From Bradyrhizobium symbiodeficiens (lineage in GTDB: Bacteria > Pseudomonadota > Alphaproteobacteria > Rhizobiales > Xanthobacteraceae), in assembly GCF_002266465.3 (NCBI RefSeq), contig NZ_CP029427.2:682001-746000 (forward strand): a DNA stretch of 64,000 nucleotides, given 5' to 3'. Shown in pieces: positions 5,468-36,626 of this stretch. The notes under the pieces are model-generated. The model was not told where the DNA came from, ran no database searches, and saw only the letters and a list, made by a program, of their open reading frames with translations. Made by a program: the position numbers and the translations under genes. Numbering within the stretch: position 1 is the first letter of the stretch; each line of letters starts with the position of its first letter.

Positions 5468-6985
5468 ATGTTGCTGCCCCTGTCCGACGTGCCGCGCTGG
5501 TACGCTGAACGCAAACCGCAAGGCACGATCGCAATCCGCCATGGGCAGGACACGCTGACATGGGACCAGCTCGAGCGCGGTGCCAACCGGCGGGCGCGGG
5601 CGTTCGCGGCCAAGGGCGTCAGGCCCGGCGATTTCGTTGCGATCGGACTGCCCAACGGCAATGCGTTCTTCGAGACATCCTTTGCAGTGTGGAAGTGTGG
5701 GGCGACGCCGACCTCGCTGTCATGGCGGCTGCCGCGCGGCGAGGCCGCTGCCGTGCTCGACATTCTCAAGCCCGCGCTGGTGGTCGGCGGCGAGGCCGAT
5801 TGGAACGCGCCGAATCGTCTGCCGGCGGATTTCGTACCGGAAGGATTTTCGGATGAGGCGCTCGCTCCGCCGGTGGCGCGCTACTGGAAGGCCATGACCT
5901 CCGGCGGCTCGACCGGCCGGCCGAAAGTGATCCTCGATCATCAGCCGGCCGTGACCGACACGGTCGCCGCGCCGCCGCTGAATATTCCCTTCGGGGTTTC
6001 GCTGCTCAACCCGGGGCCGCTCTATCACAATGCGCCGTTCATCGTGTCGCATTACGCGCTGTTCACCGGCGGCAAGCTCACCGGTCTTACCAAGTTCGAT
6101 GCCGAGGAGACGTTGCGGCAGATCGAACGCGAGCACGTGCAATGGATCAATTTCGTGCCGACCATGATGCACCGGATCTGGGCGCTGCCGGAGCAGGTGC
6201 GCAACGCCTATGATCTGTCGAGCCTGCAGACCGTGTTTCACATGGCGGCGCCCATGCCGCCCTGGCTGAAGGAGAACTGGATCGCCTGGCTCGGCCCGGA
6301 GCGGATCTGGGAGCTCTATGGCGGCACCGAGCGGCAGGGCGCCTGCATCATCTCGGGCACGGACTGGCTGACGCACAAGGGCTCGGTCGGCAAGATCGGC
6401 GACATGGCGAAGCTGCGCATCATCGGCGAGGATGGCAGCGACGTCGCGCCCGGCGAGACCGGCGAGATCTATTTCCTCAACAATGACGGCAGGGACGCCA
6501 CCTATCACTATCTCGGCGCCGAGCCGAAGCGGCGCAGCGACGGCTGGGAATCGCTCGGCGATATCGGCCAGCTGGATGCCGAAGGCTATCTCTATCTCGG
6601 CGATCGCCTCGCCGACATGGTGCTGCGCGGCGGCGCCAACATCTATCCGGCCGAGGTCGAGGCTGCGGTCTCCGAGTGCCCGGGCGTGCGCTCCTGCGTG
6701 GTGGTGGGATTGCCCGATCCGGAGCTCGGCCAGCGCGTGCACGCCATCATCGAGCCGGAGCCGGACAGCGATGGCCAGGCGATCGCCGACGGCATGGCGG
6801 AGTTCCTGAAGGACAGGCTCAGCCGCTACAAGCACCCTGAAAGCTTCGAGTTCGTCGGCGCGCCGCCGCGCGATGATTCCGGAAAAGTCCGCCGCACCCT
6901 GTTGCGCGACGAGCGCGCAGCGTGGATGAAGGAGGGGCGCGCCTTCCGGATATGGCCGGCGAAGGCACGGGCGCACGCTGAATAA
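5468..6985 (+). CDS. AMP-dependent acyl-CoA synthetase/ligase
   Basis: 505-residue ANL-family adenylating enzyme that makes acyl-AMP and then acyl-CoA from a carboxylic acid. P-loop MTSGGSTGRPKVIL at about residues 142-155, YGGTERQG (A5-type motif), a GDIGQLDAEGYLYLGDRLAD hinge region, GGANIYPAEVE, and the C-terminal DDSGKVRRTLL with the catalytic-type Lys. The short N-domain and wording resemble the BaiB-like branch. ATG 5468 is the first in-frame ATG with a plausible GGAAA site nine bases upstream. The RraA-like gene starts 25 bases downstream, so ligase, RraA-like protein, cupin and TctC may form one unit. Substrate unknown. Confidence 0.88.
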   Translation: MLLPLSDVPRWYAERKPQGTIAIRHGQDTLTWDQLERGANRRARAFAAKGVRPGDFVAIGLPNGNAFFETSFAVWKCGATPTSLSWRLPRGEAAAVLDILKPALVVGGEADWNAPNRLPADFVPEGFSDEALAPPVARYWKAMTSGGSTGRPKVILDHQPAVTDTVAAPPLNIPFGVSLLNPGPLYHNAPFIVSHYALFTGGKLTGLTKFDAEETLRQIEREHVQWINFVPTMMHRIWALPEQVRNAYDLSSLQTVFHMAAPMPPWLKENWIAWLGPERIWELYGGTERQGACIISGTDWLTHKGSVGKIGDMAKLRIIGEDGSDVAPGETGEIYFLNNDGRDATYHYLGAEPKRRSDGWESLGDIGQLDAEGYLYLGDRLADMVLRGGANIYPAEVEAAVSECPGVRSCVVVGLPDPELGQRVHAIIEPEPDSDGQAIADGMAEFLKDRLSRYKHPESFEFVGAPPRDDSGKVRRTLLRDERAAWMKEGRAFRIWPAKARAHAE

Positions 6986-7010
6986 GAGAAACACGGAAGG
7001 GTTCTGGGAC

Positions 7011-7649
7011 ATGACGATCACCATTGCAGCGAACAGCGTGCCGAAGCCGCCGGCCGGGATCATCGAGGGCTTTCGCGGTGCGCCAACCTCGGTCATTTCA
7101 GACAATCTCGCCCGCCTCCCCGGCGCGGTCGGGCTGAAGCCTTATCACCGCGGGGCCAAGCTGGTGGGCACGGCCTTCACGGTGCGCACCCGCCCAGGCG
7201 ACAATCTCGCCATCCACCGGGCGCTCGAACTGGTCGGCCCCGGCGACGTCATCGTAGTCGACGGCGGCGGCGACGAAACGCGCGCGCTGGTCGGCGAGAT
7301 CATGAAGAACATCGCGCAATGGCGCAAAGCCGAAGGCTACGTCATCGACGGCGCGATCCGCGATGTCGCGGCGTTCGCGGCCGACGATTTTCCCTGCTAC
7401 GCCCGTGCCGTGATCCACCGCGGTCCCTACAAGAACGGTCCCGGCGAGATCAACGTGCCCGTCACGATCGGCGGCAGCGTGATCTCGCCCGGCGACATCG
7501 TCGTCGGCGACGAGGATGGCGTGGTGTCGTTTCCCGCCGCGGGCGCGGCGGCGCTGCTGGAGGCAGTCCGCGCCCAGGTCGCGCGCGAGGAGGAGACGCT
7601 GAAGGCGATCCGCGAGGGCCGCTATCAGGGCTCGTATGGAAAATCCTGA
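7011..7649 (+). CDS. RraA family / HMG aldolase-like protein
   Basis: 212 residues of the RraA fold. Catalytic branches of this family (4-hydroxy-4-methyl-2-oxoglutarate/4-carboxy-4-hydroxy-2-oxoadipate aldolase, oxaloacetate decarboxylase) share G-x-x-x...R-D; here GEIMKNIAQWRKAEGYVIDGAIRD (about residues 101-124) keeps the Gly and the terminal Arg-Asp pair that binds substrate and metal. This favours a divalent-metal lyase over an RNase E inhibitor role, because the protein is in a catabolic context with a ligase, a cupin and a carboxylate-binding protein. GGAAGG lies about 11 bases before ATG 7011. Confidence 0.82.
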   Translation: MTITIAANSVPKPPAGIIEGFRGAPTSVISDNLARLPGAVGLKPYHRGAKLVGTAFTVRTRPGDNLAIHRALELVGPGDVIVVDGGGDETRALVGEIMKNIAQWRKAEGYVIDGAIRDVAAFAADDFPCYARAVIHRGPYKNGPGEINVPVTIGGSVISPGDIVVGDEDGVVSFPAAGAAALLEAVRAQVAREEETLKAIREGRYQGSYGKS

Positions 7650-7676
7650 TCAGGCGAGAACGAAGGGGAGGTTGGC

Positions 7677-8048
7677 GTGAGTCAGAAGGAAGAATTCCAC
7701 AATATCGACGATCCCAGCGACGGGCTGTTCCGCGAGCTCACGGCGGGGGTGACCACGCGCATCTTCTCCGGCGAGCAGGCGATGCTGTCGGTGGTGACGC
7801 TGGCCCCGCATGCGCAAGGCACGCTGCACCATCATCCCGAGGAGCAATGGGGCGTGCTGCTCGATGGCTCCGCGATCCGCGTCCAGGGCGACGAGGAGAT
7901 TGCGGTGAAGAAGGGCGATTTCTGGCGCACCCCGGGCAATGTGCCGCACACCATGCGCGCCGGACCCGAAGGTGCCCGGGTGCTGGACATCTTCAGTCCG
8001 CCTCGGCCAGAATACAAGAAAGCAGGATCGGGCTTCGGCACGACCTAG
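7677..8048 (+). CDS. Cupin domain protein
   Basis: 123-residue single-domain cupin. The first cupin motif is HHHPEEQWGVLLDGS with His/His/Glu metal ligands and the second is GNVPHTMRAGPEGARVLDIF with the final His. The start is GTG 7677 preceded by GGGGAGG; no ATG fits. It begins 28 bases after the RraA-like gene and 51 bases before the TctC-type gene, so it is probably in the same transcript. Small cupins like this can be isomerases, decarboxylases or sensors; the reaction is unknown. Confidence 0.83.
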   Translation: MSQKEEFHNIDDPSDGLFRELTAGVTTRIFSGEQAMLSVVTLAPHAQGTLHHHPEEQWGVLLDGSAIRVQGDEEIAVKKGDFWRTPGNVPHTMRAGPEGARVLDIFSPPRPEYKKAGSGFGTT

Positions 8049-8098
8049 CAAGCGCCAAAGGGCACAAAGCCGAGCGCAAGATAAAACGGGAGGGGACC

Positions 8099-9055
8099 AT
8101 GACGATCACACGACGCACGCTGCTGGCCGCACCGGCCATTCTCGCATTGACGCCGGCAAGCGCGCAGGCCGGAAAGATCACGCTGGTGGTGCCGTTTCCG
8201 CCGGGCGGCTCGACCGACGCGATGGCGCGGCTGTTGCAGGCCAGCCTGCAAACCAAGCTCGGCCGCATCGTCGTGGTCGAGAACAAGTCGGGCGCGGCCG
8301 GCGCGCTCGGCGCGGCGCAGGTCGCCAAGAGCCCGGCGGACGGCACCTCGTTCCTGGTCACCTTCGATTCCCACGCGGTGATCCCGTCGATCCTCGACAA
8401 GCCGCCGGTCGACGTCGAGCGCGAGCTGATGCCGGTGCTCCTGATCGGCACCGCGCCCTACGTGATCGCCGCCGGCGCCGGCCGTCCCTACAAGAGCTTC
8501 GCCGACGTGGTCGCGGCCTGCAAGGCGACGCCGGGCGCGGTGAAATACGCCTCGGTCGGCATCGGCACGCTCGGCCATCTCGCCATGACCGTGCTCGGCA
8601 GCAAGGCCGGCGTCGAGATCATGCACGTGCCCTATCGCGGCGGCGGGCCGGCGATGAACGACGTGCTCGGCGGCCATGTCGATCTCATCGCGGGATCGGC
8701 GGCGCTGGTCGCCGCCCAGCTCGGCACTAACATGCTGCATCCGATCCTGCAGCTCGGCCGCGAGCGGCTGCCGGCCCTGCCTGGCACGCAGACCGCGATC
8801 GAGGCGGGCTTTCCGGATTTCGAGACGCTGGCCTGGTGGGGCATCTTCGCGCCCGCAGGCACGCCGCCCGATGTCGTCGCAGCCTTCGCGGCGGCCTCCA
8901 AGGAAATCCTGAGCGAGCCCGCGACCGCCGCCCAGCTCAAGGACACTCAGCACATGACGCTGCTGCTCCAGGACGGCGCAGCCTTCAAGACCTTCTTCGA
9001 CAAGCAGGTCGCCACTTGGGGCAAGGTGGTGAAGGACAATAATATCAGGGCGTAG
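8099..9055 (+). CDS. TctC/Bug-type tripartite tricarboxylate transporter binding protein
   Basis: 318 residues. N-terminal TRRTLLAAPAILALTPASAQA is a signal peptide with a twin Arg, possibly Tat-dependent. Mature protein shows the family's strand-1 signature ITLVVPFPPGGSTDAMARLL, the VVENKSGAAGALGAAQVA segment, HVPYRGGGPAMNDVLGGHVD, and WWGIFAPAGTP. Binds carboxylates in the periplasm for TctAB. No TctA or TctB lies in this window, so it is an orphan, a common situation for the expanded Bug family. AGGGGA sits just before ATG 8099. A terminator-like hairpin follows. Confidence 0.9.
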   Translation: MTITRRTLLAAPAILALTPASAQAGKITLVVPFPPGGSTDAMARLLQASLQTKLGRIVVVENKSGAAGALGAAQVAKSPADGTSFLVTFDSHAVIPSILDKPPVDVERELMPVLLIGTAPYVIAAGAGRPYKSFADVVAACKATPGAVKYASVGIGTLGHLAMTVLGSKAGVEIMHVPYRGGGPAMNDVLGGHVDLIAGSAALVAAQLGTNMLHPILQLGRERLPALPGTQTAIEAGFPDFETLAWWGIFAPAGTPPDVVAAFAAASKEILSEPATAAQLKDTQHMTLLLQDGAAFKTFFDKQVATWGKVVKDNNIRA

Positions 9056-9345: not shown

Positions 9346-10242
9346 ATGCGGCCTCGAAAGATCGATCTCAACCTGCTTGTGACGCTGGAGGCGCTCGTCG
9401 CCGAGAAGAGCGTGTCCAGGACGGCGCAGAGACTGGGCCTGACCCAGTCGGCTGTCAGCCATTCGCTGCGGCGGCTGCGCGCTGCGTTCAGCGACCAACT
9501 CTTCGTCCGCTCCCCGACTGGAGTGGAGCCGACGCGACGGGCGCTCGAGATTGCGAGCGCGACGCGGCTCGCACTGGAACAACTGGAGCAGACCATCGAT
9601 GGTTCTGCGGCCTTTGATCCCGCGACCGCGGAGCGGACGTTTTCCCTTCGTCTGTCCGAATATGTCTCGAGCCATCTGCTTCGGCGCCTGTGTCCGATCC
9701 TACGGCAGGAGGCGCCCGGGGTCCGCATTCTTGCAACCCATTTCACCGGCGATCCCCGTGAGGACGAAATCGTCGGCGACGAAATCCATGTGCGTCTTGC
9801 CGCTTCTGGCGGGGTGATCGGTCGCCGCGAACGGCTGCGTGTCGTCGACGAGAAGTTCGTCGTCCTGATGCGAAAGTCGCACCCCGCGCGCCGCAAGCCG
9901 ATGACTCTCGCGTCCTATGCGGCGCTTTCCCATGTGAAGGTGGTGGGAACGATCGGCTCCAACATCATCGACGATGCGCTACGCATTCGCGGACTTCGCC
10001 GGGATGTCGTCTTCAGCGTTCCGAGTTGGCGCGACGCGATCCATATCGTTGCCAACAGCGATCTGCTCGCTGCGATCCCCGCACGGTGGACCAGGGATCA
10101 GGAGCAGCCGGCGGAACAGGTCACGACGCGGCCCTTCCCCCTCGATGACGTGACCTTCGCGATCGATCTGGAATGGCATCCGCGATTCAGCGGCGACGCC
10201 GGCCATAACTGGTTTCGCAGGCTCGTTGCCGGGCAGTTCTAG
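9346..10242 (+). CDS. LysR-family transcriptional regulator
   Basis: 298 residues. N-terminal winged HTH (IDLNLLVTLEALVAEKSVSRTAQRLGLTQSAVSHSLRRLR, about residues 6-45) and a substrate-binding-like effector domain beginning near residue 90. The NodD/NahR-like branch is suggested by LNLLVTLEALVAEKSVSRTA. ATG 9346 has no strong ribosome site. CACGA-AA-TCGTG at 9301-9312 is a possible self-regulatory site. It reads in the same direction as the MFS gene that follows, an arrangement less common than divergence, with a 17-base palindrome in the gap. It probably controls the 10362-14658 genes. Confidence 0.9.
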   Translation: MRPRKIDLNLLVTLEALVAEKSVSRTAQRLGLTQSAVSHSLRRLRAAFSDQLFVRSPTGVEPTRRALEIASATRLALEQLEQTIDGSAAFDPATAERTFSLRLSEYVSSHLLRRLCPILRQEAPGVRILATHFTGDPREDEIVGDEIHVRLAASGGVIGRRERLRVVDEKFVVLMRKSHPARRKPMTLASYAALSHVKVVGTIGSNIIDDALRIRGLRRDVVFSVPSWRDAIHIVANSDLLAAIPARWTRDQEQPAEQVTTRPFPLDDVTFAIDLEWHPRFSGDAGHNWFRRLVAGQF

Positions 10243-26112: not shown

Positions 26113-26997
26113 CTACAGCGACGGCGCGAGTGACGCTTTCAGCAGGGTGAGCAGCGCCTGCACCGCGGCGGCGTTGCGCCGCCGCTCGGGGATCGCGGCC
26201 TTCACCCACAATTCCGGAATCGGAAAGTCGCGCAGCACCGGCTTGAGCGTGCCGTCGCGCAAGGCGTCGGCCACGAGATAATGCGACAGCAGTGCGATGC
26301 CGTTGCCGGCGATGGCGCTGCTCGCCAGCACATGGCCCTCGTTGGAGGAGAGCAGCGGGCTGACCTGGATGCTGATGCGGCCCCGCGGTCCGTCGAAGAT
26401 CCATTCCGGGCCGGTCGGCAGAAAGCTGAGGCAGCGATGCTCGACGAGGTCGCGCGGGTGCTTTGGCGTGCCGTGCCTCTTCAAATAAGCGGGCGAGGCG
26501 CAGAGCAGCCGCTTCAGCGCGCAGAGCGGCTCGTCGATCACGCCGCCGAACGAATGCGGAAAGGCGCCGATCGCGATGTCGAATCCTTCGGTGACGGGAT
26601 CGACCGGGCGATCGATCAGCACGATGTCGAGCTTCAGCTTCGGGTTCTGGGTCTGGAACGCGCTGAAAGCGTCCGCGAGCCGAGCCACGGTCAGCGAGGT
26701 CGGCGCCTTGATGCGTAGGTGATCGACGAGATCGTGGCCCTTCTCGCCCATGCGCGAGAGCAGGTCGGTGGCATCGGTCACCACGCCTCGTGCGCGATGC
26801 ACATAGCGCTGTCCGGCCTCGGTCAGCCGCAACTGCCGGGTCGAGCGATGAAACAGCGGTGTGCCGATGCGCGTCTCCAGCTGTGTGACGCGCTTGGCGA
26901 CGACCGAAGTCGAAACGTTGAGCTTTCGCGCAGCGGCGGAGAAGCCGGCCGCATCCGCGGTGGCAAGGAAGGCCTGGAGGTTCACGAGAATATCCAT
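26113..26997 (-). CDS. LysR-family transcriptional regulator
   Basis: 294 residues. HTH DILVNLQAFLATADAAGFSAAARKLNVSTSVVAKRVTQLETRIG (about residues 2-45), continuing FHRSTRQLRLTEAGQRYVHRA, then an effector domain. The CrgA-like branch is likely from AARKLNVSTSVVAKRVTQLE. Divergent from the FAD oxidoreductase gene across 111 bases, the classic LysR arrangement, so it probably regulates that gene and the ABC transporter behind it. Confidence 0.9.
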   Translation of the reverse strand: MDILVNLQAFLATADAAGFSAAARKLNVSTSVVAKRVTQLETRIGTPLFHRSTRQLRLTEAGQRYVHRARGVVTDATDLLSRMGEKGHDLVDHLRIKAPTSLTVARLADAFSAFQTQNPKLKLDIVLIDRPVDPVTEGFDIAIGAFPHSFGGVIDEPLCALKRLLCASPAYLKRHGTPKHPRDLVEHRCLSFLPTGPEWIFDGPRGRISIQVSPLLSSNEGHVLASSAIAGNGIALLSHYLVADALRDGTLKPVLRDFPIPELWVKAAIPERRRNAAAVQALLTLLKASLAPSL

Positions 26998-27051
26998 CTC
27001 GACCTTTCTCGATTCGCGAAAACTGATCGCGTATTTTGGTGGATTGTACCG

Positions 27052-27089
27052 TCTCTTGCGTTAATTCATAGTCGAACCCAAGCAAGAGA
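27052..27089. promoter_or_regulatory. Inverted repeat in leader of FAD oxidoreductase gene
   Basis: TCTCTTGC (27052-27059) and GCAAGAGA (27082-27089) are perfect reverse complements with a 22-base spacer, followed by TTTTGGG and then the AAGGAA ribosome site. It may be the LysR binding region or a leader stem. Confidence 0.4.
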
Positions 27090-27108
27090 TTTTGGGAAGG
27101 AACGCGCC

Positions 27109-28473
27109 ATGCGGGCCACGATGATCGAAGAACCGGCACGACAGGTACCGCTCTATGGCGAATATGAAGTCGTCGTGCTCGGCGGCGGCCCGGCCGGCAT
27201 CGTCGCCGCGGCCTCAGCCGCGCGCGCAGAGCGAAAGACGCTTCTGATCGAGCGCTACGGGTTCCTCGGCGGCATGGGCACCGCTGCCGGTGTCACCAAT
27301 TTTTGCGGCCTGCATGGCAATGTCTACGGCCAGGCCCATCGCCTCGTGCAGGGCATGGCGTCCGAGCTGCTGGCGCGGATCGATCGGCTCAATGGCCTGA
27401 ACACGCCGCATCTGATCCTCGGCAAGGTCTTTGCCCAGGCCTATGACACCGCGGCCTACAAGATCGCGGCGGACCAACTGCTGGCGAGCCACAAGGTGCA
27501 CATCCTCTTCCACGCGCTCGGCGCCGGCGTGGTGATGGGCGACAACAGCCGCATCGACGCGCTGATGGTCGAGACCAAGGCCGGACGGCGGGCGGTGCGA
27601 TCAGAGATCTTCATCGATTGCTCCGGCGACGGCGACCTCGCCGTCTGGGCCGGTGCGCCATTCGACATCGGCGATGCGCACGGCCATCCGATGTATCCCT
27701 CGATGATGCTCCGTCTCAACGGCATCGATCCTGACAAGGCGGGCGCTGCCTGGCGCACCATTCCGCATTTGATGGAAAAGGCGCTTGCCGCCGGCACCCA
27801 CACATTCCCGCGCAAGAGCGCCATCGTACGGCCGCAGAAATCCGGCATCGAGTGGCGTGTGAACTTCACGCAAGTGGCGCGCGAGGATGGCCACGCCATC
27901 AACGGCGTCGAGCCCGACGATCTCACCCGCGGCGAGATCGAGGGCCGCAAACAGGCGCTCGCCGCGTTCGAATTCCTGCGCACCGTGCCCGGCTTCGAAA
28001 AGTCCTACATCGTCGACCTGCCGCCACAACTCGGCATCCGCGAGACCCGGCGTATCAAGGGCGGCTATCAGCTCAGCGGCGAGGACGTGCTCGGCTGCGC
28101 CTCCTTCGAGGACTCGATTGGCGTCAATGGCTGGCCGATCGAGGCTCACGTTCCCGGCGACGTCGTCTTCACTTTTCCACCGATCCCGGAGTCCCGCGGC
28201 TACAACGAGCTGCCGTATCGGATGCTGGTGCCCGAAGGTGTCGACAATCTGCTGGTCGCCGGCCGTTGCGCCTCGATGACCCACGAGGGCCAGTCCGCGG
28301 CGCGGGTCTCGGGGGCCTGTTTTGCGATGGGCGAGGCGGCCGGTTCCGCCGCTGCATTGGCACTCTCCGGAAACCGGATTCCACGCGACATCCCCATTGA
28401 AAAGTTGCAGGAAACATTGAAACAACAGGGCGCCTTCATCGGACGGGACCAGCCGGTGCCCGAGGGCCTGTAA
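27109..28473 (+). CDS. FAD-dependent oxidoreductase (FAD_oxidored family)
   Basis: 454 residues. Dinucleotide-binding VVVLGGGPAGIVAAASAARA (about residues 21-40), then LIERYGFLGGMGTAAGVTNFCG, the hallmark of the FAD_oxidored group, FIDCSGDGDLAVWAGAP (second GD motif), QLGIRETRRIKGGYQLSGEDV and NLLVAGRCASMTHEGQSAARV near the C-terminus. Substrates of this family are mostly unknown. AAGGAA precedes ATG 27109. A NitT/TauT-type ABC transporter follows after 35 bases, which suggests that the transporter imports the compound this enzyme oxidises, under control of the divergent LysR protein. Confidence 0.87.
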   Translation: MRATMIEEPARQVPLYGEYEVVVLGGGPAGIVAAASAARAERKTLLIERYGFLGGMGTAAGVTNFCGLHGNVYGQAHRLVQGMASELLARIDRLNGLNTPHLILGKVFAQAYDTAAYKIAADQLLASHKVHILFHALGAGVVMGDNSRIDALMVETKAGRRAVRSEIFIDCSGDGDLAVWAGAPFDIGDAHGHPMYPSMMLRLNGIDPDKAGAAWRTIPHLMEKALAAGTHTFPRKSAIVRPQKSGIEWRVNFTQVAREDGHAINGVEPDDLTRGEIEGRKQALAAFEFLRTVPGFEKSYIVDLPPQLGIRETRRIKGGYQLSGEDVLGCASFEDSIGVNGWPIEAHVPGDVVFTFPPIPESRGYNELPYRMLVPEGVDNLLVAGRCASMTHEGQSAARVSGACFAMGEAAGSAAALALSGNRIPRDIPIEKLQETLKQQGAFIGRDQPVPEGL

Positions 28474-28508
28474 CGGACTGCAAGATAAACGGCGGCGGAG
28501 GAAGCAGG

Positions 28509-29513
28509 ATGATCGGAATTGCGCGGCTCGCGGCAGCCAGTCTTTTGGCGATCATGGCGATGGGTACAGTCCATGCCGAGGATGCGCTGAAGGCCAGGAT
28601 CGGCGTGCTCCGTCTGTCCTCTTCCGCGCCGGTCTTCATCGCGCAGGACAAGGGCTATTTTCGCGAGGCCGGCCTCGAGGTCGAGCTGAAATTCTTCGAC
28701 GCGGCACAGCCGATCGCGGTCGCCACCACGTCGGGCGACGTCGATTTCGGCATCACCGCCTTCACCGCCGGTCTCTACAATCTCGCCGGCAAGGGCGTGC
28801 TGAAGGTGATCGGCGGCATGAGCCGCGAGAAGGCCGGCTATCCCCTGATCGGCTATTTCGCCAGCAACAACGCCTACGCGGCTGGATTGAAGACGCCGAA
28901 GGACCTCGCGGGCAAACGCGTGGCGATGACGCAGGTCGGCTCCTCCTTCCACTATTCGCTCGGCCTGCTCGCCGACAAATACGGCTTCAAGCTCGCGGAC
29001 GTGAAGATCGTGCCGCTGCAATCGTTGTCCAATGCCGCCGCCGCGCTGAAGGGCGAGACCGTCGATGCGGCGCTGCTGCCGATCTCGACGGCGCGAAAGC
29101 TCACGGACGAAGGCGGAGCGAAATTCCTGGGCTGGGTCGGCGACGAAACGCCGTGGCAACTGGGTGCGGTGTTCGCCTCGCCGAAGATGCTGACCAACAA
29201 GGCGCTGGTGACGAAGCTGCTTGGCGCCTTGGCGAAGGCGGACCGCGAATATCACGACGTCATCCTCGCCGCGATGAAGGGCGGTGTTGCGCCGATCAAC
29301 GACCAGACAAAGCCGCTGCTGGAGATCATCGCAAAGTACACCAACCTCCCGGTCGAGCAGGTGGTCGGCAATTGCGCCTATATCGATCCCGACGGCAAGC
29401 TCGACGTGAAGAACGTCGACAACCAGATCAAATGGCTGCAGGAGCAGGGCTTCGTCGACAAGGGCTTTGACGCGAACGCGATCATCGCCAAGGACTATGT
29501 GAAGGCGGATTGA
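28509..29513 (+). CDS. NitT/TauT-type ABC transporter substrate-binding protein
   Basis: 334 residues, signal peptide (IARLAAASLLAIMAMGTVHA, cleavage near 23). ARIGVLRLSSSAPVFIAQDKGYFREAGLEVELKFF is the NMT1-type N-terminus; DVDFGITAFTAGLYNLA, and GKRVAMTQVGSSFHYSLGLLADKYG follow. Periplasmic ligand binder for the ATPase and permease encoded next. GGAGGAAGCAGG precedes ATG 28509. Ligand unknown; an organic acid or amine related to the FAD enzyme is a guess from context. Confidence 0.88.
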   Translation: MIGIARLAAASLLAIMAMGTVHAEDALKARIGVLRLSSSAPVFIAQDKGYFREAGLEVELKFFDAAQPIAVATTSGDVDFGITAFTAGLYNLAGKGVLKVIGGMSREKAGYPLIGYFASNNAYAAGLKTPKDLAGKRVAMTQVGSSFHYSLGLLADKYGFKLADVKIVPLQSLSNAAAALKGETVDAALLPISTARKLTDEGGAKFLGWVGDETPWQLGAVFASPKMLTNKALVTKLLGALAKADREYHDVILAAMKGGVAPINDQTKPLLEIIAKYTNLPVEQVVGNCAYIDPDGKLDVKNVDNQIKWLQEQGFVDKGFDANAIIAKDYVKAD

Positions 29514-29529
29514 AAGCGGGACGCAACTT

Positions 29530-30303
29530 ATGGACCTGATCGCCAACCGCATCACTCATCGCTTCGGCGATCTCGCCGTGCTCGACGACGTCTCCTTCAC
29601 GGTCGGCGCTGGCGAGGTGGTGGCGATTGTCGGGCCCTCCGGTTGCGGAAAGAGCACGCTGCTGTCGATCCTCGGTGGCCTGCTGCAACCGACATCGGGC
29701 GCGCCGGAGCTGCGCGGCGCACCGCCGGCGGGCAGCCTCAATCCGCTCACCTTCGTGTTCCAGGATTTCGCGCTGCTGCCCTGGGCGAGCGTCGAGGACA
29801 ACGTCGAATTCCCGTTGCTGCACACTCAGCTCTCGGCCCCACAGCGCCGCGCGCTTGTCGACGATGCGTTGCGTCGCACGGGCCTGACCGATTTCCGCAA
29901 CACCTATCCCAAGCAACTCTCCGGCGGCATGCGCCAGCGCGTCGGCATCTCGCGCGCGCTCGCGGTGAAGCCCGCCATTCTGCTGATGGACGAGCCGCTG
30001 TCGGCGCTGGATTCGCAGACCCGCGAGCTCTTGGTGGAGGATTTCGTCCGCCTGCTCGCCGACGGCGGCATGGGCGCGGTCTATGTCACCCATAATCTCG
30101 AAGAGGCGGCGCGGCTGGCCGACCGCATTGTGGTGCTGTCGCGGCGGCCGGGGCGCATTCGCGAGGTCGTGACCGTGCCGATGACGCGCAGCGAGCGCGG
30201 CGAAGCTGCGGCGCGCGAAAAATTGCTGGCGCTGCAGAACCAGATCTGGTCGCTGATCCGCAACGAGGCCATTGATGCAGAGCGCGAGGTCCAGCATGCT
30301 TGA
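29530..30303 (+). CDS. NitT/TauT-type ABC transporter ATP-binding protein
   Basis: 257 residues. Walker A GPSGCGKSTLL (about residues 36-46), Q-loop FVFQDFALLPWASV, ABC signature LSGGMRQRVGISRALA, Walker B ILLMDEPLSALDSQTR, and the switch His in YVTHNLEEAARLADR. Cytoplasmic ATPase of the importer. Its last codons overlap the permease start. Confidence 0.93.
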   Translation: MDLIANRITHRFGDLAVLDDVSFTVGAGEVVAIVGPSGCGKSTLLSILGGLLQPTSGAPELRGAPPAGSLNPLTFVFQDFALLPWASVEDNVEFPLLHTQLSAPQRRALVDDALRRTGLTDFRNTYPKQLSGGMRQRVGISRALAVKPAILLMDEPLSALDSQTRELLVEDFVRLLADGGMGAVYVTHNLEEAARLADRIVVLSRRPGRIREVVTVPMTRSERGEAAAREKLLALQNQIWSLIRNEAIDAEREVQHA

Positions 30304-31117
30304 TCGCGCGGCGACTGACATTGCGAAGGACGGAGCGACGCGGCGCGTGCGGTTTCGCGGCGCCGGCTTTGTTCCCGCCAGCAGCCGTTTCGGCGGCTGG
30401 ATCGCGCTCGCTCTGGTCATCGCGATCTGGCAGGCGGCGGGCAGCACCGGCCTCGTCAATGCGCTATTTCTGCCGACGCCCGCTGCAATCGTGCGCGCGA
30501 TCTATCAGCTCGCGGTCTCCGGCGCGCTCTGGCAGCATCTCTCGGCGTCGCTGCTGCGCATCGGCGTCGGCTGGCTGCTCGGCACCGCGGCCGGCGTGGT
30601 GGTCGGCTTTGCCATCGGCCTCTCCCGACTGGCGCGCAGCGTCGGCATCACCTTCATCTCGGCGCTGTTCCCGATTCCGAAGATCGCGCTGCTGCCGCTC
30701 CTGATCCTCTGGCTCGGCATCGGCGAAGAGCCGAAGATCGCGACCATCGCGCTGGGGGTGTTCTTCTCGACCGCGATCTCGGTCTATAGCGGCGTCGACG
30801 CCGTGCCGCGCAATTTGATCCGCATGGCGCAGAGCTTCAACGTTCCCTTCGCCACCATCGTGCGCAAGGTGATCTGGCCCGGCGCGCTGCCCGCGATCCT
30901 CGCCGGCTTCCGCATCACCGCCTCGGTGGCGCTGCTGCTCGTCGTCAGCGCCGAGATGATCGGCGCGCAGTACGGCATCGGCGCCTTCGTGTTGCAGGCC
31001 GGCAATCTGATGCAGACGGATCAACTGCTCGCGGGCGTAGTGATCCTGTCGGTGTTCGGGCTGGCGGTGGGGAAAGTGATCAATCTGCTGGAGACGCGGT
31101 TGCTGCACTGGCGGTAG
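30296..31117 (+). CDS. NitT/TauT-type ABC transporter permease
   Basis: 273 residues with about six membrane helices. The EAA-type cytoplasmic loop is NLIRMAQSFNVPFATIVRKVIWPGALPAILAGFR (about residues 175-208), typical of the SsuC/TauC permeases. ATG 30296 is chosen because GAGG lies six bases upstream; it overlaps the ATPase gene by eight bases. ATG 30275 is an earlier in-frame alternative. Last gene of the LysR-linked ABC unit; a palindromic repeat follows. Confidence 0.9.
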   Translation: MLDRAATDIAKDGATRRVRFRGAGFVPASSRFGGWIALALVIAIWQAAGSTGLVNALFLPTPAAIVRAIYQLAVSGALWQHLSASLLRIGVGWLLGTAAGVVVGFAIGLSRLARSVGITFISALFPIPKIALLPLLILWLGIGEEPKIATIALGVFFSTAISVYSGVDAVPRNLIRMAQSFNVPFATIVRKVIWPGALPAILAGFRITASVALLLVVSAEMIGAQYGIGAFVLQAGNLMQTDQLLAGVVILSVFGLAVGKVINLLETRLLHWR

Positions 31118-31234: not shown

Positions 31235-32275
31235 TCACGCATTGCCGCGATCTTCCCTGAACAAATCCAGCTTCTGCTGCACGGGCCGATCCGAGAAGCT
31301 GAACAGCACGGCGTCCTCATCCGCCTCGTGCGTGACCCAGTGCCAGCTCGGCACCACGAACAGATCGCGGGGACCCCATTCGAAGACCGCATCGCCGATG
31401 CGGCTGCGGCCCTTGCCCTCGATCGGGCAGAACACGGTCGCGTCAGTTGACCGATAGCGCGCGGTCTTGAAACCCTTGGGCAGCAGCTGGATGAAGGTGC
31501 CGATGGTCGGCATCGCGAAATCGCCGGTCTCGGGGTTGCTGAACTTCAGCTTCAGCCCGTGGCAGGCGTCCCACTCCTGGCTCGTGCGCGCCTTCTCCAG
31601 GGCTTCGCGGGTGTAGGCATAGGGATAGCTGAAGATCGGCGAGGTCTTCGAGTTGCGCTTGACGTCGACCGGCAGCAGATTGTGGCCGTAGCGCGCAAAG
31701 CTGTCGCCGGCGGGCTTCGTGATCTTCTGCTGATCTTCCTTCGAGCCTTCCGCAAAGGAGCAATCGAAGAACTGCACCAGGGGAATATCCAGGCCGTCGA
31801 GCCAGAACATCGGCTGATCGGTCTCGTTTGAATGATCGTGCCAGGTCATCGACGGCGTGATGATGAAGTCGCCCGGCTCCATCGCGGTGCGCTCGCCATC
31901 AACCGCGGTATGGGCACCCTTGCCTTCGAGCACGAAGCGCAGCGCGGACTGGCTGTGCCGGTGTGCCGGCGCGACGTCGCCGGGCACCACCATCTGCACG
32001 CCGGCATAGAGCGAGGTCGTGATCTTGGACTGGCCGCGCAGACCGGGATTCTCCAGCACCAGCACGCGCCGCTCGGCTTCCTTGGCGGTGATCAGTTTAC
32101 CGGCCTCCGTCATGTAGTCGCGGATGACGTCAAATTTCCAGAGGTGCGGCCGGCAGGCGCTCTTCGGCTCCGGCGTGATCAGATCGCTCATCACCGTCCA
32201 CAGCGCGGTGAGGTTTTCGCCATCGATCTTCTTGTAGAAGGCCTCGCGTTCCGGCGTCTTGGTCACGGCTTCCAT
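31235..32275 (-). CDS. Gentisate 1,2-dioxygenase
   Basis: 346-residue bicupin Fe(II) ring-cleavage enzyme converting gentisate to maleylpyruvate with O2. First cupin: PAHRHSQSALRFVLEGKGAHTAVDGE and TPSMTWHDHSN, giving the three His iron ligands (about residues 104, 106 and 145). The N-terminal ALWTVMSDLITPEP and PHLWKFDVIRDYM are family-typical, and the second cupin ends in VPSWHWVTHEADEDAVLFSFSD. GGGAG is well placed before ATG 32275. A promoter TTGACG-N16-TATACT overlaps an operator-like sequence upstream. It feeds the isomerase encoded divergently. Confidence 0.93.
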   Translation of the reverse strand: MEAVTKTPEREAFYKKIDGENLTALWTVMSDLITPEPKSACRPHLWKFDVIRDYMTEAGKLITAKEAERRVLVLENPGLRGQSKITTSLYAGVQMVVPGDVAPAHRHSQSALRFVLEGKGAHTAVDGERTAMEPGDFIITPSMTWHDHSNETDQPMFWLDGLDIPLVQFFDCSFAEGSKEDQQKITKPAGDSFARYGHNLLPVDVKRNSKTSPIFSYPYAYTREALEKARTSQEWDACHGLKLKFSNPETGDFAMPTIGTFIQLLPKGFKTARYRSTDATVFCPIEGKGRSRIGDAVFEWGPRDLFVVPSWHWVTHEADEDAVLFSFSDRPVQQKLDLFREDRGNA

Positions 32276-32300: not shown

Positions 32301-32335
32301 ATTGACAGTATACTGACGGTCTAGGTAGCGTCAAT
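32301..32335 (-). promoter_or_regulatory. Promoter and MarR-type operator of gentisate dioxygenase
   Basis: Read on the minus strand, TTGACG (32334-32329) and TATACT (32312-32307) are 16 bases apart and make a good sigma-70 promoter ending about 30 bases before the dioxygenase ATG. Over the -10 lies GACAGTA-TACT-GACGGTC (32304-32321), an imperfect palindrome nearly identical to the one at 36453. The region also shows ATTGAC (32301-32306) opposite GTCAAT (32330-32335). Confidence 0.65.
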
Positions 32336-32365
32336 GCGACGAACAAGAACGTAAGGGAGGTTTCG

Positions 32366-32998
32366 ATGAAGCTGCACGGCTATTTCCGCTCCAGCGCCGC
32401 CTATCGGGTGCGGATCGCGCTGAACCTGAAGGGCCTCGGGGCCGAGCACCTGCCGCACCATTTGCGCAAGGGCGAGCAATGCGCGCCCGCTTATCTCGCG
32501 ATCAATCCGCAAGGGCTGGTCCCGACGCTGGAGAACGATGGCGGCGCGGTGCTGACGCAATCGGTCGCGATCATCGAATGGCTCGACGAGACCCATCCCA
32601 ATCCGCCGCTGCTGCCGAAGGATCCGCTGCGCCGCGCCAAGGTGAGGGCGTTTGCGCTGGCGATCGCCTGCGACACCCATCCGGTGCAGAACCTGAAAGT
32701 GCTGGCGCGGCTGCGCGAGCTCGGGCTGGCTGAAGAGAAGGTCCAGGACTGGGCGGCGTGGGTCAACCGCGAGGGACTGTCGGCCTGCGAGACGCTGATC
32801 CGGGACGAGCCCGGGCCGTTCTGCTTCGGCGATGCGCCGACGCTCGCCGATCTCTGCCTGGTGCCGCAGCTCGCCAATGCCCGCCGTTTCGGCGTCGATG
32901 TCTCGGCCTATCCTCGCCTGCTCGCGGCGGAAGCTGCCGCAAAGGCGCTCGCCGCGTTTGCTAATGCCGCACCGGAGAAGCAGCCCGATGCCGAGTAA
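32366..32998 (+). CDS. Zeta-class GST maleylpyruvate (maleylacetoacetate) isomerase
   Basis: 210 residues. The zeta-class signature FRSSAAYRVRIALNLKG (about residues 7-23) with the two catalytic Ser, INPQGLVPTLENDGGAVLTQSVAIIEWLDE for glutathione binding, and IACDTHPVQNLKVLARL in the helical domain. Isomerises maleylpyruvate to fumarylpyruvate (or maleylacetoacetate to fumarylacetoacetate); the gentisate dioxygenase next door favours the first. AGGGAGG precedes ATG 32366. Its end overlaps the MarR gene by 11 bases. Confidence 0.9.
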   Translation: MKLHGYFRSSAAYRVRIALNLKGLGAEHLPHHLRKGEQCAPAYLAINPQGLVPTLENDGGAVLTQSVAIIEWLDETHPNPPLLPKDPLRRAKVRAFALAIACDTHPVQNLKVLARLRELGLAEEKVQDWAAWVNREGLSACETLIRDEPGPFCFGDAPTLADLCLVPQLANARRFGVDVSAYPRLLAAEAAAKALAAFANAAPEKQPDAE

Positions 32999-33500
32999 GG
33001 CTTCTCCTCCCATCACGATCGATGCGGTCTATGCCGCGCCGGGCTATCTGTTCCGGCGCATGCAGCAGATCGCTGTCTCGATCTTCATGGAGGAGTGCAA
33101 GGCGTTCGATCTGACCCCGGTGCAATATGCGGCGCTGATCGCGATCCACACCCATCCCGGCATCGATGCCACGCGGCTGTCGGCGGTGATCGCCTTCGAC
33201 CGCTCCACGCTCGGCAGCGTGATCGAACGTCTCCAGGCTAAGGACTATGTCGAACGCAAGCCGGCCCCCGAGGACAAGCGGATCAAGCTGCTCCATCTGA
33301 CCAGATCGGGCGCCGCGATTCTGCGCGAGATCATCCCCGCGGTCGAACGCGCCCAGGCGCGCATGCTGGAGCCGCTCAAGCCGGCCGATCGCAAGACGCT
33401 GATGGGGCTTATGGTGCAACTCGTCGATCTCAACAACGAGGCGTCGCGCGTGCCGCTGCGGGCGGAGGACGCGCTGGAGCATCTGGGGAAGGCGGGGTGA
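32988..33500 (+). CDS. MarR-family transcriptional regulator
   Basis: 170 residues. GYLFRRMQQIAVSIFMEECKAFDLTPVQYAALIAI then the winged helix IDATRLSAVIAFDRSTLGSVIERLQAKDYVERKPAPEDKRIKLLHLTRSG (about residues 60-110). ATG 32988 overlaps the isomerase gene by 11 bases with GGAG ten bases upstream, so it is probably made from the same message. MarR proteins of this type usually respond to aromatic acids or aryl-CoA and repress catabolic genes. The two matching palindromes at 32304 and 36453 are the natural targets. Confidence 0.9.
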   Translation: MPSKASPPITIDAVYAAPGYLFRRMQQIAVSIFMEECKAFDLTPVQYAALIAIHTHPGIDATRLSAVIAFDRSTLGSVIERLQAKDYVERKPAPEDKRIKLLHLTRSGAAILREIIPAVERAQARMLEPLKPADRKTLMGLMVQLVDLNNEASRVPLRAEDALEHLGKAG

Positions 33501-33540
33501 GGGAAGTGAGGAAGGCGCCGCTGTTGCAAGAATAGAGGTG

Positions 33541-33640
33541 TCATTCCCCGCGGAGGCGGGGAATCCAGTACGCTGCGGCCTATCAGTTCAATCACAACTG
33601 TCTCGGAGTACTGGATCGCCCGCCTTCGCGGGCGAGGACC
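33541..33640. repeat. Palindromic intergenic repeat between convergent genes
   Basis: Three nested or adjacent stems: ATTCCCCGC/GCGGGGAAT (33543-33564, loop GGAG), CCAGTA/TACTGG (33565-33570, 33609-33614) and GCCCGC/GCGGGC (33618-33633). The layout matches rhizobial palindromic elements. It separates the MarR and CoA-ligase genes. Confidence 0.75.
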
Positions 33641-33685
33641 GCGGTTGTGTGGCGGCGTGAGCTGCGCTACTCGCCGCGGCCGCCC

Positions 33686-35299
33686 TCACATCCGCAGCAA
33701 CGCCTGCCGGTCGATCTTCCCCGTGCCCGTCTTCGGCAGCTCGTCGGTGAAGATCACCTCGCGCGGATATTTGTAAGGAAGCAGCTTGCCCTTGACGTAA
33801 TCCTGCAGCCGCCGCGTCGCTTCACTCCGGTCGGCGGTGCGATTGTTCATCACCACCACCGCCTTCAGCGTCATGCGCCGGTCCGGCAGCTCGGCGGCGA
33901 ACACCGCGCATTCGCGGATGTCGGGATGATCAGCGAGGCACAGCTCGACTTCCAGCGGGTAGACCCACTGTCCGGAAATCTTGATGAGATCGTCGGCGCG
34001 GCCGCGGAAGAAGTGGAAGCCATCGGCATCGCGGATGAAGCGGTCGCCGGTGTAGATCCAGCCGCCCTGCCGAATCGTCTCTGCGGATTTGTCCGGCCTG
34101 TTCCAGTAGAGCGGCGTGTTGGAATCGCCGCGCACCCACAAGATGCCTTCCTCGTTGTCGCCGACGTCGCGTCCATCTTTGTCGCGCAGCGCCACCTCAT
34201 AGCCGGGCACGCGCAGGCCGGCGGCGCCGAGCTTCTTCTGCTCGGGGCGGTTGGAGAGATAGATGTGCAGCACCTCGGTCGAGCCGAGGCCCTCGATGAT
34301 CTCCAGGCCCGTGATCGCCTTCCAGCCGTTGAAGACCTCCGCCGACAGCACCTCCGCCGCCGAAAGCGACATGCGCAGCGACGAGAAATTGGTCTTGTCC
34401 GCGCCTTCGGCCTTGGTGAGGGACGTGTAGAGCGTCGGCAGGCCGAAGAAGACCGTCGGCTTGTACTGTTCGATCGCTGCAAAGATCGACGCGGGCTTCG
34501 GCTGGCCCGGCAGCAGCAGCGTTGCGGCGCCCGCAGAGAAAGGGAAGGTGACGGAGTTGCCGAAGCCATAGGCGAAGAAGATCTTCGGCACCGAGAAGCA
34601 GATGTCATCGGGCGTCAGCTTCAGCACGTTCTGCGCAAAGGCGAGCTCGCTATAGGCCATGTCGTGCTGGAGATGCACGATGCCCTTGGGCCGGCCGGTC
34701 GAGCCGGACGAGTACATCCAGAACGCCATCTCGTTGCGATGGGTGTCCGCTTCCTCCAGATCGGCCGGGAATTGCTCGAGCCAGTCCGCCGCCGCAAGCG
34801 CGCTCGGCGCGGCGTGATTGCCCGCCTTGCCGTTGACGACGATCAGCGTGCGCAGGCGCGTGTCCTTGCAAGCCTCTGCATTGAAGTGGCCACAGAACTC
34901 GGCCTCCGCCACCGCAACACTGGCTCCGGAATCGGCGAGGTAGAATTGCAATAGGTCCGGCGGCGTCAGTGTGTTGATCAGGAGCGGCACGAAGCCGGCC
35001 CGCACCGCGCCGAAGAACGCGGCCGGGTAGGCCGGCGTGTCGTCGAGAAACAGCAGCACGCGGTCGCCGCGTTGCAGGCCGAGCGATGCAAAGCCGTTGC
35101 CCCAGCGGCAAGCCTCGTCGCAGAGCTCGGCATAGGTCCGCGCGCCTGCCGCACCAATGAGCGCGACCCTTTCGCCACGGCCCTTGGCGAGATTGTCGAA
35201 CAGCACGCGGCTGGCGTTGTAAAGTTCCGGAACGGCAAAGCCGATCTCGCGCGCGCCCTCGCTGTCGGCGGGCACCTGGTCGAAAATCTCGTTGCTCAT
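33686..35299 (-). CDS. Benzoate/salicylate-type aryl-CoA ligase
   Basis: 537 residues of the benzoate-CoA ligase branch of ANL enzymes. P-loop MYSSGSTGRPKGIVHLQHDM (about residues 191-210), FFAYGFGNSVTFPFSAGA, GLGSTEVLHIYLSN (A5), GWIYTGDRFIRDADGFHFFRGRADDLIKISGQWVYPLEVE, and LPKTGTGKIDRQAL with the catalytic Lys. Forms an aryl-CoA from ATP, CoA and an aromatic acid; salicylate or another hydroxy/aminobenzoate is favoured because the partner gene encodes an aryl-CoA hydroxylase. ATG 35299 overlaps the TGA of the upstream hydroxylase gene (ATGA), so the two are translationally coupled. Confidence 0.9.
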   Translation of the reverse strand: MSNEIFDQVPADSEGAREIGFAVPELYNASRVLFDNLAKGRGERVALIGAAGARTYAELCDEACRWGNGFASLGLQRGDRVLLFLDDTPAYPAAFFGAVRAGFVPLLINTLTPPDLLQFYLADSGASVAVAEAEFCGHFNAEACKDTRLRTLIVVNGKAGNHAAPSALAAADWLEQFPADLEEADTHRNEMAFWMYSSGSTGRPKGIVHLQHDMAYSELAFAQNVLKLTPDDICFSVPKIFFAYGFGNSVTFPFSAGAATLLLPGQPKPASIFAAIEQYKPTVFFGLPTLYTSLTKAEGADKTNFSSLRMSLSAAEVLSAEVFNGWKAITGLEIIEGLGSTEVLHIYLSNRPEQKKLGAAGLRVPGYEVALRDKDGRDVGDNEEGILWVRGDSNTPLYWNRPDKSAETIRQGGWIYTGDRFIRDADGFHFFRGRADDLIKISGQWVYPLEVELCLADHPDIRECAVFAAELPDRRMTLKAVVVMNNRTADRSEATRRLQDYVKGKLLPYKYPREVIFTDELPKTGTGKIDRQALLRM

Positions 35300-36435
35300 G
35301 CCTCGTCCCCGCCGTTCCTGGCGGCCTCGTAACGCGCCATGAAGGCTGGCGACATGTGGCGCAGGCGTGCATCGTCGATGCGGCCGGAGCGGGTGATGTA
35401 GCTATAGGCGAAGTCCATCAGGCCCTGCTGCATGTGCTGGGCAAATTGCTCGTACCAGAAGGCGCTGGTGCGCGCGGCGTTGACGAGCTTCTGCACCACG
35501 GGCTTGCGCGCGGCCTGGTAGCGATGCAGTGCGGTCGCAAGATGCGCATCCGATTCCAGCGCCTTGACCAGCGCGATGGCATCTTCGATCGCGAGCCGCG
35601 TGCCCGAGCCGATCGAGAAATGCGCGGAATGCAGGGCATCGCCGATCAGCACCATGTTCTTGAACGACCAATGCTCGTTCCAGACCCAGGGGAAGTTGCG
35701 CCAGACCGATTTGTTGGAGACGAGGCAATGGCCGCCGAGCGTGTCCGCGAACACCTCTTCGCAGACGCCCTTGGACTGCTCGACGTCCTTGTAGGCGAAA
35801 CCATAGGCCTGCCAGGTCGCGTGGTCGCATTCGACCAGGAAGGTGCTCATGGCCGGCGAGTAGCGGTAGTGATGGGCGTTGAAGGCGCCGCGATCGGTCT
35901 TCACGAAGGTCTGCGACAGCGTGTCGAACCGCTTCGAGGTGCCGTACCAGACGAACTTGTTGGAGGAGTAGGACAGCGAGGTGCCGAAATCACCTTCGAA
36001 GGTGCGGCGGACCAGCGAGTTCAGCCCGTCCGCGGCAACGATCAGATCATATCCGTTGAGCTGGTCGACGGCCTGAATCTGCGTATCGAAGCGCGGCGTG
36101 ACGCCGACGTCGATCGCGTGCTGCTGCAGGAACCGCAGCAGCTCGAGCCGCCCGATCGAGGAGAAGCCGACCCCGTCGATGGCGACGCTGTCGCCGCCGA
36201 GGTTCAGCGTGATGTTCTCCCAGCTCTCCATGTGCGGCGCGATCGCGTCGACCGTCTCGGGGTCGTCGGCGCGCAGGAATTCCAGCGCCTGGTCGGAGAA
36301 CACGACGCCAAAGCCCCAGGTCGCGTCGGCCGGGTTCTGTTCGAACAGGTCGACCTGATCCTCGGGATGACGCTTCTTCCAGAGATAGGCGAAGTAGAGC
36401 CCACCGGGCCCCCCGCCAATCACGGCGATCCGCAA
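35296..36435 (-). CDS. Salicylyl-CoA 5-hydroxylase-like FAD monooxygenase
   Basis: 379 residues. FAD-binding VIGGGPGGLYFAYLWKKRHP (about residues 5-24), DLIVAADGLNSLVRR (DG motif) and VLIGDALHSAHFSIGSGTRLAIEDA (second FAD motif, about residues 278-302), the last closely matching salicylyl-CoA 5-hydroxylases and the monooxygenase part of 2-aminobenzoyl-CoA monooxygenase/reductase. Expected reaction: O2- and NAD(P)H-dependent 5-hydroxylation of an aryl-CoA. The start is TTG 36435 with AGGGAGG six bases upstream. The ring product would become gentisate after CoA loss; no thioesterase gene is adjacent. Confidence 0.85.
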   Translation of the reverse strand: MRIAVIGGGPGGLYFAYLWKKRHPEDQVDLFEQNPADATWGFGVVFSDQALEFLRADDPETVDAIAPHMESWENITLNLGGDSVAIDGVGFSSIGRLELLRFLQQHAIDVGVTPRFDTQIQAVDQLNGYDLIVAADGLNSLVRRTFEGDFGTSLSYSSNKFVWYGTSKRFDTLSQTFVKTDRGAFNAHHYRYSPAMSTFLVECDHATWQAYGFAYKDVEQSKGVCEEVFADTLGGHCLVSNKSVWRNFPWVWNEHWSFKNMVLIGDALHSAHFSIGSGTRLAIEDAIALVKALESDAHLATALHRYQAARKPVVQKLVNAARTSAFWYEQFAQHMQQGLMDFAYSYITRSGRIDDARLRHMSPAFMARYEAARNGGDEA

Positions 36436-36450
36436 ATTCTGCCTCCCTAA

Positions 36451-36475
36451 TTGACAGTATACTTACTATCTAGGG
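36451..36475 (-). promoter_or_regulatory. MarR-type operator upstream of aryl-CoA hydroxylase
   Basis: GACAGTA-TACT-TACTATC (36453-36470) is a palindrome with 6 of 7 matching arm positions. With its flanks it agrees at 21 of 24 positions with 32302-32325. On the minus strand TATACT at 36461-36456 could be the -10, about 21 bases before the start codon; a good -35 is not seen. Confidence 0.62.
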
Positions 36476-36626
36476 GTAGACTAATGTGCTCCAGCGGCCC
36501 GCGCCAGCGGAATTATCGGCCGAGCGCAGGCGCGCCGGGCGCATCTTTGGACACACTTTTTGCGCGTGTCCCGAAACCGTCAGGTCCGAAGCATAGCCAA
36601 ACCGCGCCGGGTTGGCCATCGTACCG

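Follow-up and report, generated by a model that had tools for sequence, protein, structure and literature searches.

Plant aromatic acids are broken down by way of intermediates such as gentisate. Among the regulators described for related routes, PcaV from Streptomyces coelicolor has been reported as a MarR protein that represses the pca operon for protocatechuate, a ring-cleavage pathway, and is induced by this free dihydroxybenzoate, and the CouR proteins from Rhodococcus jostii and Rhodopseudomonas palustris are MarR repressors of p-hydroxycinnamate catabolism whose inducer is p-coumaroyl-CoA. MobR from Comamonas testosteroni KH122-3s is likewise of the MarR type. It has been described as a 3-hydroxybenzoate-responsive regulator of the 3-hydroxybenzoate hydroxylase gene mobA (PMC4737184), and in Burkholderia xenovorans LB400 the MarR-type gene for MhbR lies beside a gentisate cluster, where a palindromic operator has been proposed between divergent promoters (PMC3572157).

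The window analyzed herein, a stretch of 64,000 nucleotides, corresponds to positions 682,001-746,000 of the Bradyrhizobium symbiodeficiens genome, a single contig of 7,025,104 bases. As summarized in Table 1, it carries genes for a gentisate 1,2-dioxygenase, a zeta-class isomerase and a MarR-family regulator (MarR 32988), the last overlapping the isomerase stop by 11 bases, and, facing this isomerase-marR pair from the minus strand, genes for a ligase and an FAD hydroxylase. The hydroxylase was related to the N-terminal half of salicylyl-CoA 5-hydroxylase, its PRK08255 score lying below the whole-protein cut-off of 1078. Judging by the context, the isomerase, ligase, and hydroxylase would be a maleylpyruvate isomerase, a hydroxybenzoate-CoA ligase, and a gentisate-forming enzyme, respectively. 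Where the marR and ligase genes converge (33540-33650), there is a repeat-like, G+C-rich inverted sequence (GTCATTCCCCGCGGAGGCGGGGAATCCAGTAC ... GTACTGGATCGCCCGCCTTCGCGGGCGAGGAC) that resembles either a terminator or a dispersed palindromic element. Adjoining the cluster (26113-31117), a LysR gene (26113-26997) diverges from an operon encoding an FAD oxidoreductase and a sulfonate/nitrate-type ABC importer. Some relatives (L193, L198, L200, L201, and L215) also have the importer close to the cluster; in the B. symbiodeficiens genome, no MarR site was found at it.

Table 1. Genes, putative operators, and promoters of the gentisate cluster (window positions; a slash marks the dyad centre).
Feature	Position	Strand	Remarks
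Gentisate 1,2-dioxygenase	31235..32275	-	TIGR02272, 632.8 bits (cut-off 442.1)
Zeta-class GST-type isomerase	32366..32998	+	TIGR01262 maiA, 267.3 bits (cut-off 171)
MarR-family regulator	32988..33500	+	PF12802, 48.2 bits (cut-off 27); PF01047, 43.8 bits (cut-off 24.6)
Benzoate-CoA ligase family protein	33686..35299	-	TIGR02262, 480.8 bits (cut-off 375)
FAD hydroxylase	35296..36435	-	PRK08255, 398.9 bits, positions 1-382 of 768
Operator D (putative), TTGACAGTA/TACTGACGG	32302..32319		Dyad centre between 32310 and 32311
Operator H (putative), TTGACAGTA/TACTTACTA	36451..36468		Dyad centre between 36459 and 36460
33-bp block at D, TTGACAGTATACTGACGGTCTAGGTAGCGTCAA	32302..32334		Length equals that of the inverted-repeat element of other genera
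Dioxygenase promoter	32307..32334	-	-35 TTGACG (32334-32329), 16-base spacer, -10 TATACT (32312-32307)
Probable hydroxylase promoter	36456..36484	-	Weak -35 TTAGTC (36484-36479), 17-base spacer, -10 TATACT (36461-36456)

The initial annotation had drawn attention to two nearly identical, non-coding sequences on the two arms of this cluster, and its description proved accurate: TTGACAGTATACT is identical at exactly 32302-32314 and 36451-36463, the two sites share 21 of 24 bases when compared by ATTGACAGTATACTnACnnTCTAG, and both are intergenic. The first (site D) lies between the ATG codons of the dioxygenase (32275, minus strand) and the isomerase (32366, plus strand), and the second (site H) lies upstream of the hydroxylase start (36435, minus strand). 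Scanning of the window with up to two mismatches yielded these two matches against 0.08 expected, a number reached by none of 100 shuffles. The own genome was then searched by mismatch patterns, using the asymmetrical TTGACAGTATACTNACNNTCTA and the symmetrical TTGACAGTATACTGTCAA; with up to three mismatches, sites D and H alone were matched by either pattern, no further target was found, and the reversed control of TTGACAGTATACTNACNNTCTA gave no match. A wide occurrence at unrelated genes had been named beforehand as the outcome that would speak against a common operator; in this genome, both of the two places are at gentisate-pathway genes.

As for the register of the dyad, the previously proposed palindrome GACAGTA-N4-TACTATC was recognizable at H (6 of 7 arm pairs) but not at D, and was rejected as a common register since it paired only 3.77 of 9 positions at D and 5.56 of 9 at H. 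Self-complementarity averaged over distinct loci instead peaked at AGTA/TACT, where 6.83 (D) and 5.92 (H) of 9 positions were paired, supporting a dyad centre at this position, 2 bp from the earlier register, with TTGACAGTATACTGTCAA as its ideal form. The perfect form occurs at D in one genome (G066), and in B. symbiodeficiens each dyad has one degenerate arm (6 of 9 pairs). The complementarity of the outer arms alone was clear at D, where 0.8% of random placements equalled it, and weak at H, where 11% did so.

The placement of TATACT as a -10 element was correct for the minus strand at both sites. Operator D overlies the -10 box and start region of the dioxygenase promoter, which gave 10 of 12 consensus matches in the promoter scan (0.0 expected), and is at the same time upstream of the isomerase-marR operon; the outer TTGACG on the minus strand of the 33-bp block doubles as the -35 box and a degenerate second half-site. 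Operator H overlies the corresponding elements of the hydroxylase-ligase promoter, which was read from the sequence and is conserved, no promoter having been called at H by the scan. In 107 of 108 loci, a gap of 13-17 nt, exactly 15 nt in 84 of them, separates the end of the 20-base H site from the hydroxylase start codon downstream. At this distance the site covers the -10 box and the expected transcription start, and such a placement is that expected of a repressor and not of an activator.

These promoter elements also raise the question of whether the likeness of D and H merely reflects two core promoters, composed of a TTGACA-like box and TATACT, with no operator involved. TATACT does serve as the minus-strand -10 box at both sites, and TTGACG as the -35 box at D. 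However, the plus-strand TTGACA at H drives no gene, and the motif, unlike a generic promoter, is unique in the genome and tracks the gentisate genes between genera. Moreover, TGTCAAT at H, which lies between the -10 box and +1 and is no promoter element, is among the best conserved bases over the 108 loci. The promoter-only explanation was rejected on this last ground and is considered very improbable.

Conservation of the arrangement was pronounced in Bradyrhizobium, although the sequences, mostly from this one genus, are related, so that the counts below are non-independent observations. An ortholog of the MarR protein with at least 78% identity is encoded in 78 of 81 Bradyrhizobium genomes, and the motif is present within two mismatches in 76 of the 81. 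Three of the five motif-free genomes (G031, G042, and G049) are also without the MarR ortholog, and in the other two (G033 and G054) the D site carries three mismatches. Out of 135 distinct motif places in these genomes, 130 are at marR or the hydroxylase gene, that is, at gentisate-pathway genes, so that the motif is concentrated there in the relatives as well; the reversed control gave 14 places in all. The remaining five have no common target, one (G062) belonging to a paralogous MarR and those of G077 and G079 carrying one identical sequence. The D operator is found at the dioxygenase start in all 112 loci examined, with up to three mismatches to 17 fixed bases, and in a comparison of two Bradyrhizobium clades whose MarR proteins are 79-84% identical, 88-90% of the positions are retained in the 18-bp operator versus 30-38% further upstream. 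In the divergent clade, site H varies in its outer bases and mostly retains CAGTA/TACTG (e.g., TAAACAGTATACTGTCGA, TTAACAGTATACTGCCAA, and TTGTCAGTATACTGCCAA).

Some divergent Bradyrhizobium have a 3-hydroxybenzoate 6-monooxygenase gene right after marR in the same operon (L173, 3507-4691; L182, overlapping the marR end). The L173 product reached 564 bits by profile (cut-off 459), the L182 gene is similar, and no such gene follows marR in the B. symbiodeficiens genome.

The near-identity of D and H, 4.15 kb apart, and their constant distance within one clade could also be taken to mean that the two sites cooperate through a DNA loop between the operons. However, the distance ranges from about 2.5 kb (G017, in which the ligase is absent) to 6.6 kb (L182), and the H site is unrecognizable or degraded in some of them. 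No MarR protein is known to need a loop, and cooperation of this kind appears extremely improbable.

Outside Bradyrhizobium, a 33-bp inverted repeat (e.g., TTGACAGTATACATTCGATCAGTATGCTGTCAA) was found between the dioxygenase and isomerase-marR genes. This repeat may be viewed as a pair of overlapping dyads, 15 bp apart from centre to centre, with the -10 box of each of the two divergent promoters under one of them. A search of 296 family genomes of 47 genera with up to three mismatches located this pattern at 12 places in 10 genomes, whereas its reversed control was found at none. All 12 places are at gentisate-pathway genes, 10 of them at a marR ortholog. In G119 (contig 6), the element lies between a dioxygenase gene whose product is 85% identical to that of the window and a divergent 3-hydroxybenzoate 6-hydroxylase-like gene, while marR is on another contig, at a locus that lacks the dioxygenase and has an element of its own. 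In G295, it precedes genes for a 3-hydroxybenzoate 6-hydroxylase-like protein, a gentisate-dioxygenase-like protein (34%), and a MarR protein (60%). These two cases thus indicated that the 33-bp element follows the gentisate genes even apart from marR. At seven loci (L208, L209, L210, L212, L213, L216, and L217), marR and the dioxygenase gene keep the element, and the ligase and hydroxylase genes are absent.

In G122 (L211), a hydroxylase-ligase pair is present without an H site, and another palindrome, TTGCACAATGTGCAA, lies upstream near position 9629, which suggests the mark of another regulator. The lack of the H site at this pair, albeit a single case, suggests that the hydroxylase-ligase operon may have been recruited to the regulon within Bradyrhizobium.

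The operator core recurs at a second MarR protein, 44-48% identical to the gentisate MarR and encoded at C1:3452563 in B. symbiodeficiens, which has two CAGTA/TACTG-type dyads 15 bp apart upstream of its own gene in 21 of 21 genomes. The recognition helices of the paralog (AYDRTTITGVVDRL) and the gentisate MarR (AFDRSTLGSVIERL) are alike, and together with the common operator core this indicates that the present MarR branch reads this core, while the flanking bases may set the specificity between the two proteins. In the region G000:C1:3446563-3460563 (L226), the paralog gene (6004-6468, minus strand) adjoins that of a PRK08294-type monooxygenase (6572-8494, plus strand), which may be a MobA-like enzyme, and the two possibly form a MobR-MobA-like pair for 3-hydroxybenzoate.

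It could accordingly be asked whether D and H are operators of another regulator, such as this paralog or a LysR protein. Cross-binding by the paralog is conceivable because its operators have the CAGTATACTG core in common with D and H, and a LysR gene does adjoin the cluster. Nevertheless, the flanks of the paralog operators differ (ATTGCTCAGTATGCTGACTATC), the paralog has the PRK08294-type monooxygenase as its neighbour, and the 33-bp element is confined to genomes that encode a gentisate-type MarR. LysR sites are usually of the T-N11-A form and upstream of the -35 box, which counts against such a protein at D or H. Assignment to another regulator is consequently regarded as very improbable.

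The initial annotation had predicted one repressor for the dioxygenase and hydroxylase/ligase transcripts, with MarR 32988 as the candidate, and this prediction survived every sequence test applied. From the linkage of the sites to marR and the gentisate genes, MarR 32988 is very probably the shared, autoregulating repressor of both, and we consider it highly likely that D and H are its operators, through which gentisate formation and ring cleavage would be repressed together until a ligand is bound. In the proposed mechanism, the ligand-free dimer would sit on the AGTA/TACT-centred dyad and cover the -10 box and start region of the dioxygenase and hydroxylase-CoA ligase promoters, keeping RNA polymerase out, and binding at site D, which precedes the isomerase-marR operon by about 50 bases, would probably bring about autoregulation. 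One type of MarR dimer would in this way repress three transcripts. A pathway compound, most likely gentisate or a hydroxybenzoate precursor, would release the dimer, so that formation and cleavage are switched on together.

Regarding the inducer, MarR 32988 might bind both sites and respond to an aryl-CoA (hydroxybenzoyl-CoA or gentisyl-CoA), as CouR does to p-coumaroyl-CoA. CoA thioesters are the inducers of a number of MarR proteins that repress aromatic catabolism (PMC5487221), and compounds of this type are both formed and consumed by the products of the H operon. On the other hand, several other genera keep the element without a ligase or hydroxylase at the locus, the monooxygenase that divergent Bradyrhizobium carry right after marR is CoA-independent, and PcaV, the closest solved relative, binds free protocatechuate, which leaves an aryl-CoA a conceivable but unlikely inducer. 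Gentisate or a simple free hydroxybenzoate is the more likely candidate, because the conserved core of the regulon is ring cleavage, namely marR and the dioxygenase gene, usually with the isomerase gene, while the feeding routes at the locus vary among the hydroxylase-ligase pair (Bradyrhizobium), 3-hydroxybenzoate 6-monooxygenase (L173), and neither of them (several other genera). The own genome has 12 family matches of FAA-type hydrolases (candidate fumarylpyruvate hydrolases), all of them outside the window, and a thioesterase gene was not observed between those of the cluster; the route would thus be completed from elsewhere, and the regulon would not cover the whole of it.

As a tentative but realistic extension, these proteins may constitute a so far undescribed gentisate-sensing MarR family of the Nitrobacteraceae/Xanthobacteraceae, with the 33-bp two-dyad operator as the ancestral form and a regulon that follows ring cleavage wherever the gene moves, to which Bradyrhizobium would have recruited the CoA-dependent hydroxybenzoate route via a single-dyad operator, the end product gentisate thereby inducing its own upstream route. 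For aromatic-acid breakdown in this large group of bacteria from soil and root nodules, the locus offers a concrete, easily testable regulon of one repressor, two operators, and three transcripts, and it lends itself well to comparative work on how target operons are added to a regulon. As the operator is nearly unique per genome, the MarR protein and its operator could also be put to use as a gentisate/hydroxybenzoate biosensor once the ligand is known.

A literature search found no paper on a Bradyrhizobium gentisate MarR or its operator, and a search for the core CAGTATACTG returned only unrelated papers. In comparison with the known systems, MarR 32988 has the winged helix MarR domain by profile (PF12802 and PF01047) and a conserved palindrome, the D dyad, between its own operon and the divergent dioxygenase operon, in keeping with the operators of about 16-20 bp typical of the family, and it scored 66.5 bits against the Saro_0803 family (NCBIfam NF053777), below the cut-off of 200. 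PcaV (PDB 4fht, 4g9y), its closest solved relative by sequence, aligns over the full domain (residues 16-148, E 4.3e-13) and shares the N-terminal PG(H/Y)LxRRxQQ stretch, but the overall similarity is low, and the organism and pathway, gentisate in the present case, are different. MobR, likened here by its description, similarly regulates hydroxybenzoate catabolism, although the gentisate branch differs. The site proposed for MhbR (ATTGTTTCACAAACTAAT) is unlike TTGACAGTATACTGTCAA, and its proposed target is a transporter gene. CouR likewise acts on an aromatic-acid-CoA route, with another substrate, whereas the conserved regulon core described here is CoA-independent ring cleavage. MarR proteins that repress aromatic catabolism from operators overlying promoters are already well known, and D and H together with MarR 32988 represent a well-supported additional example of this class.
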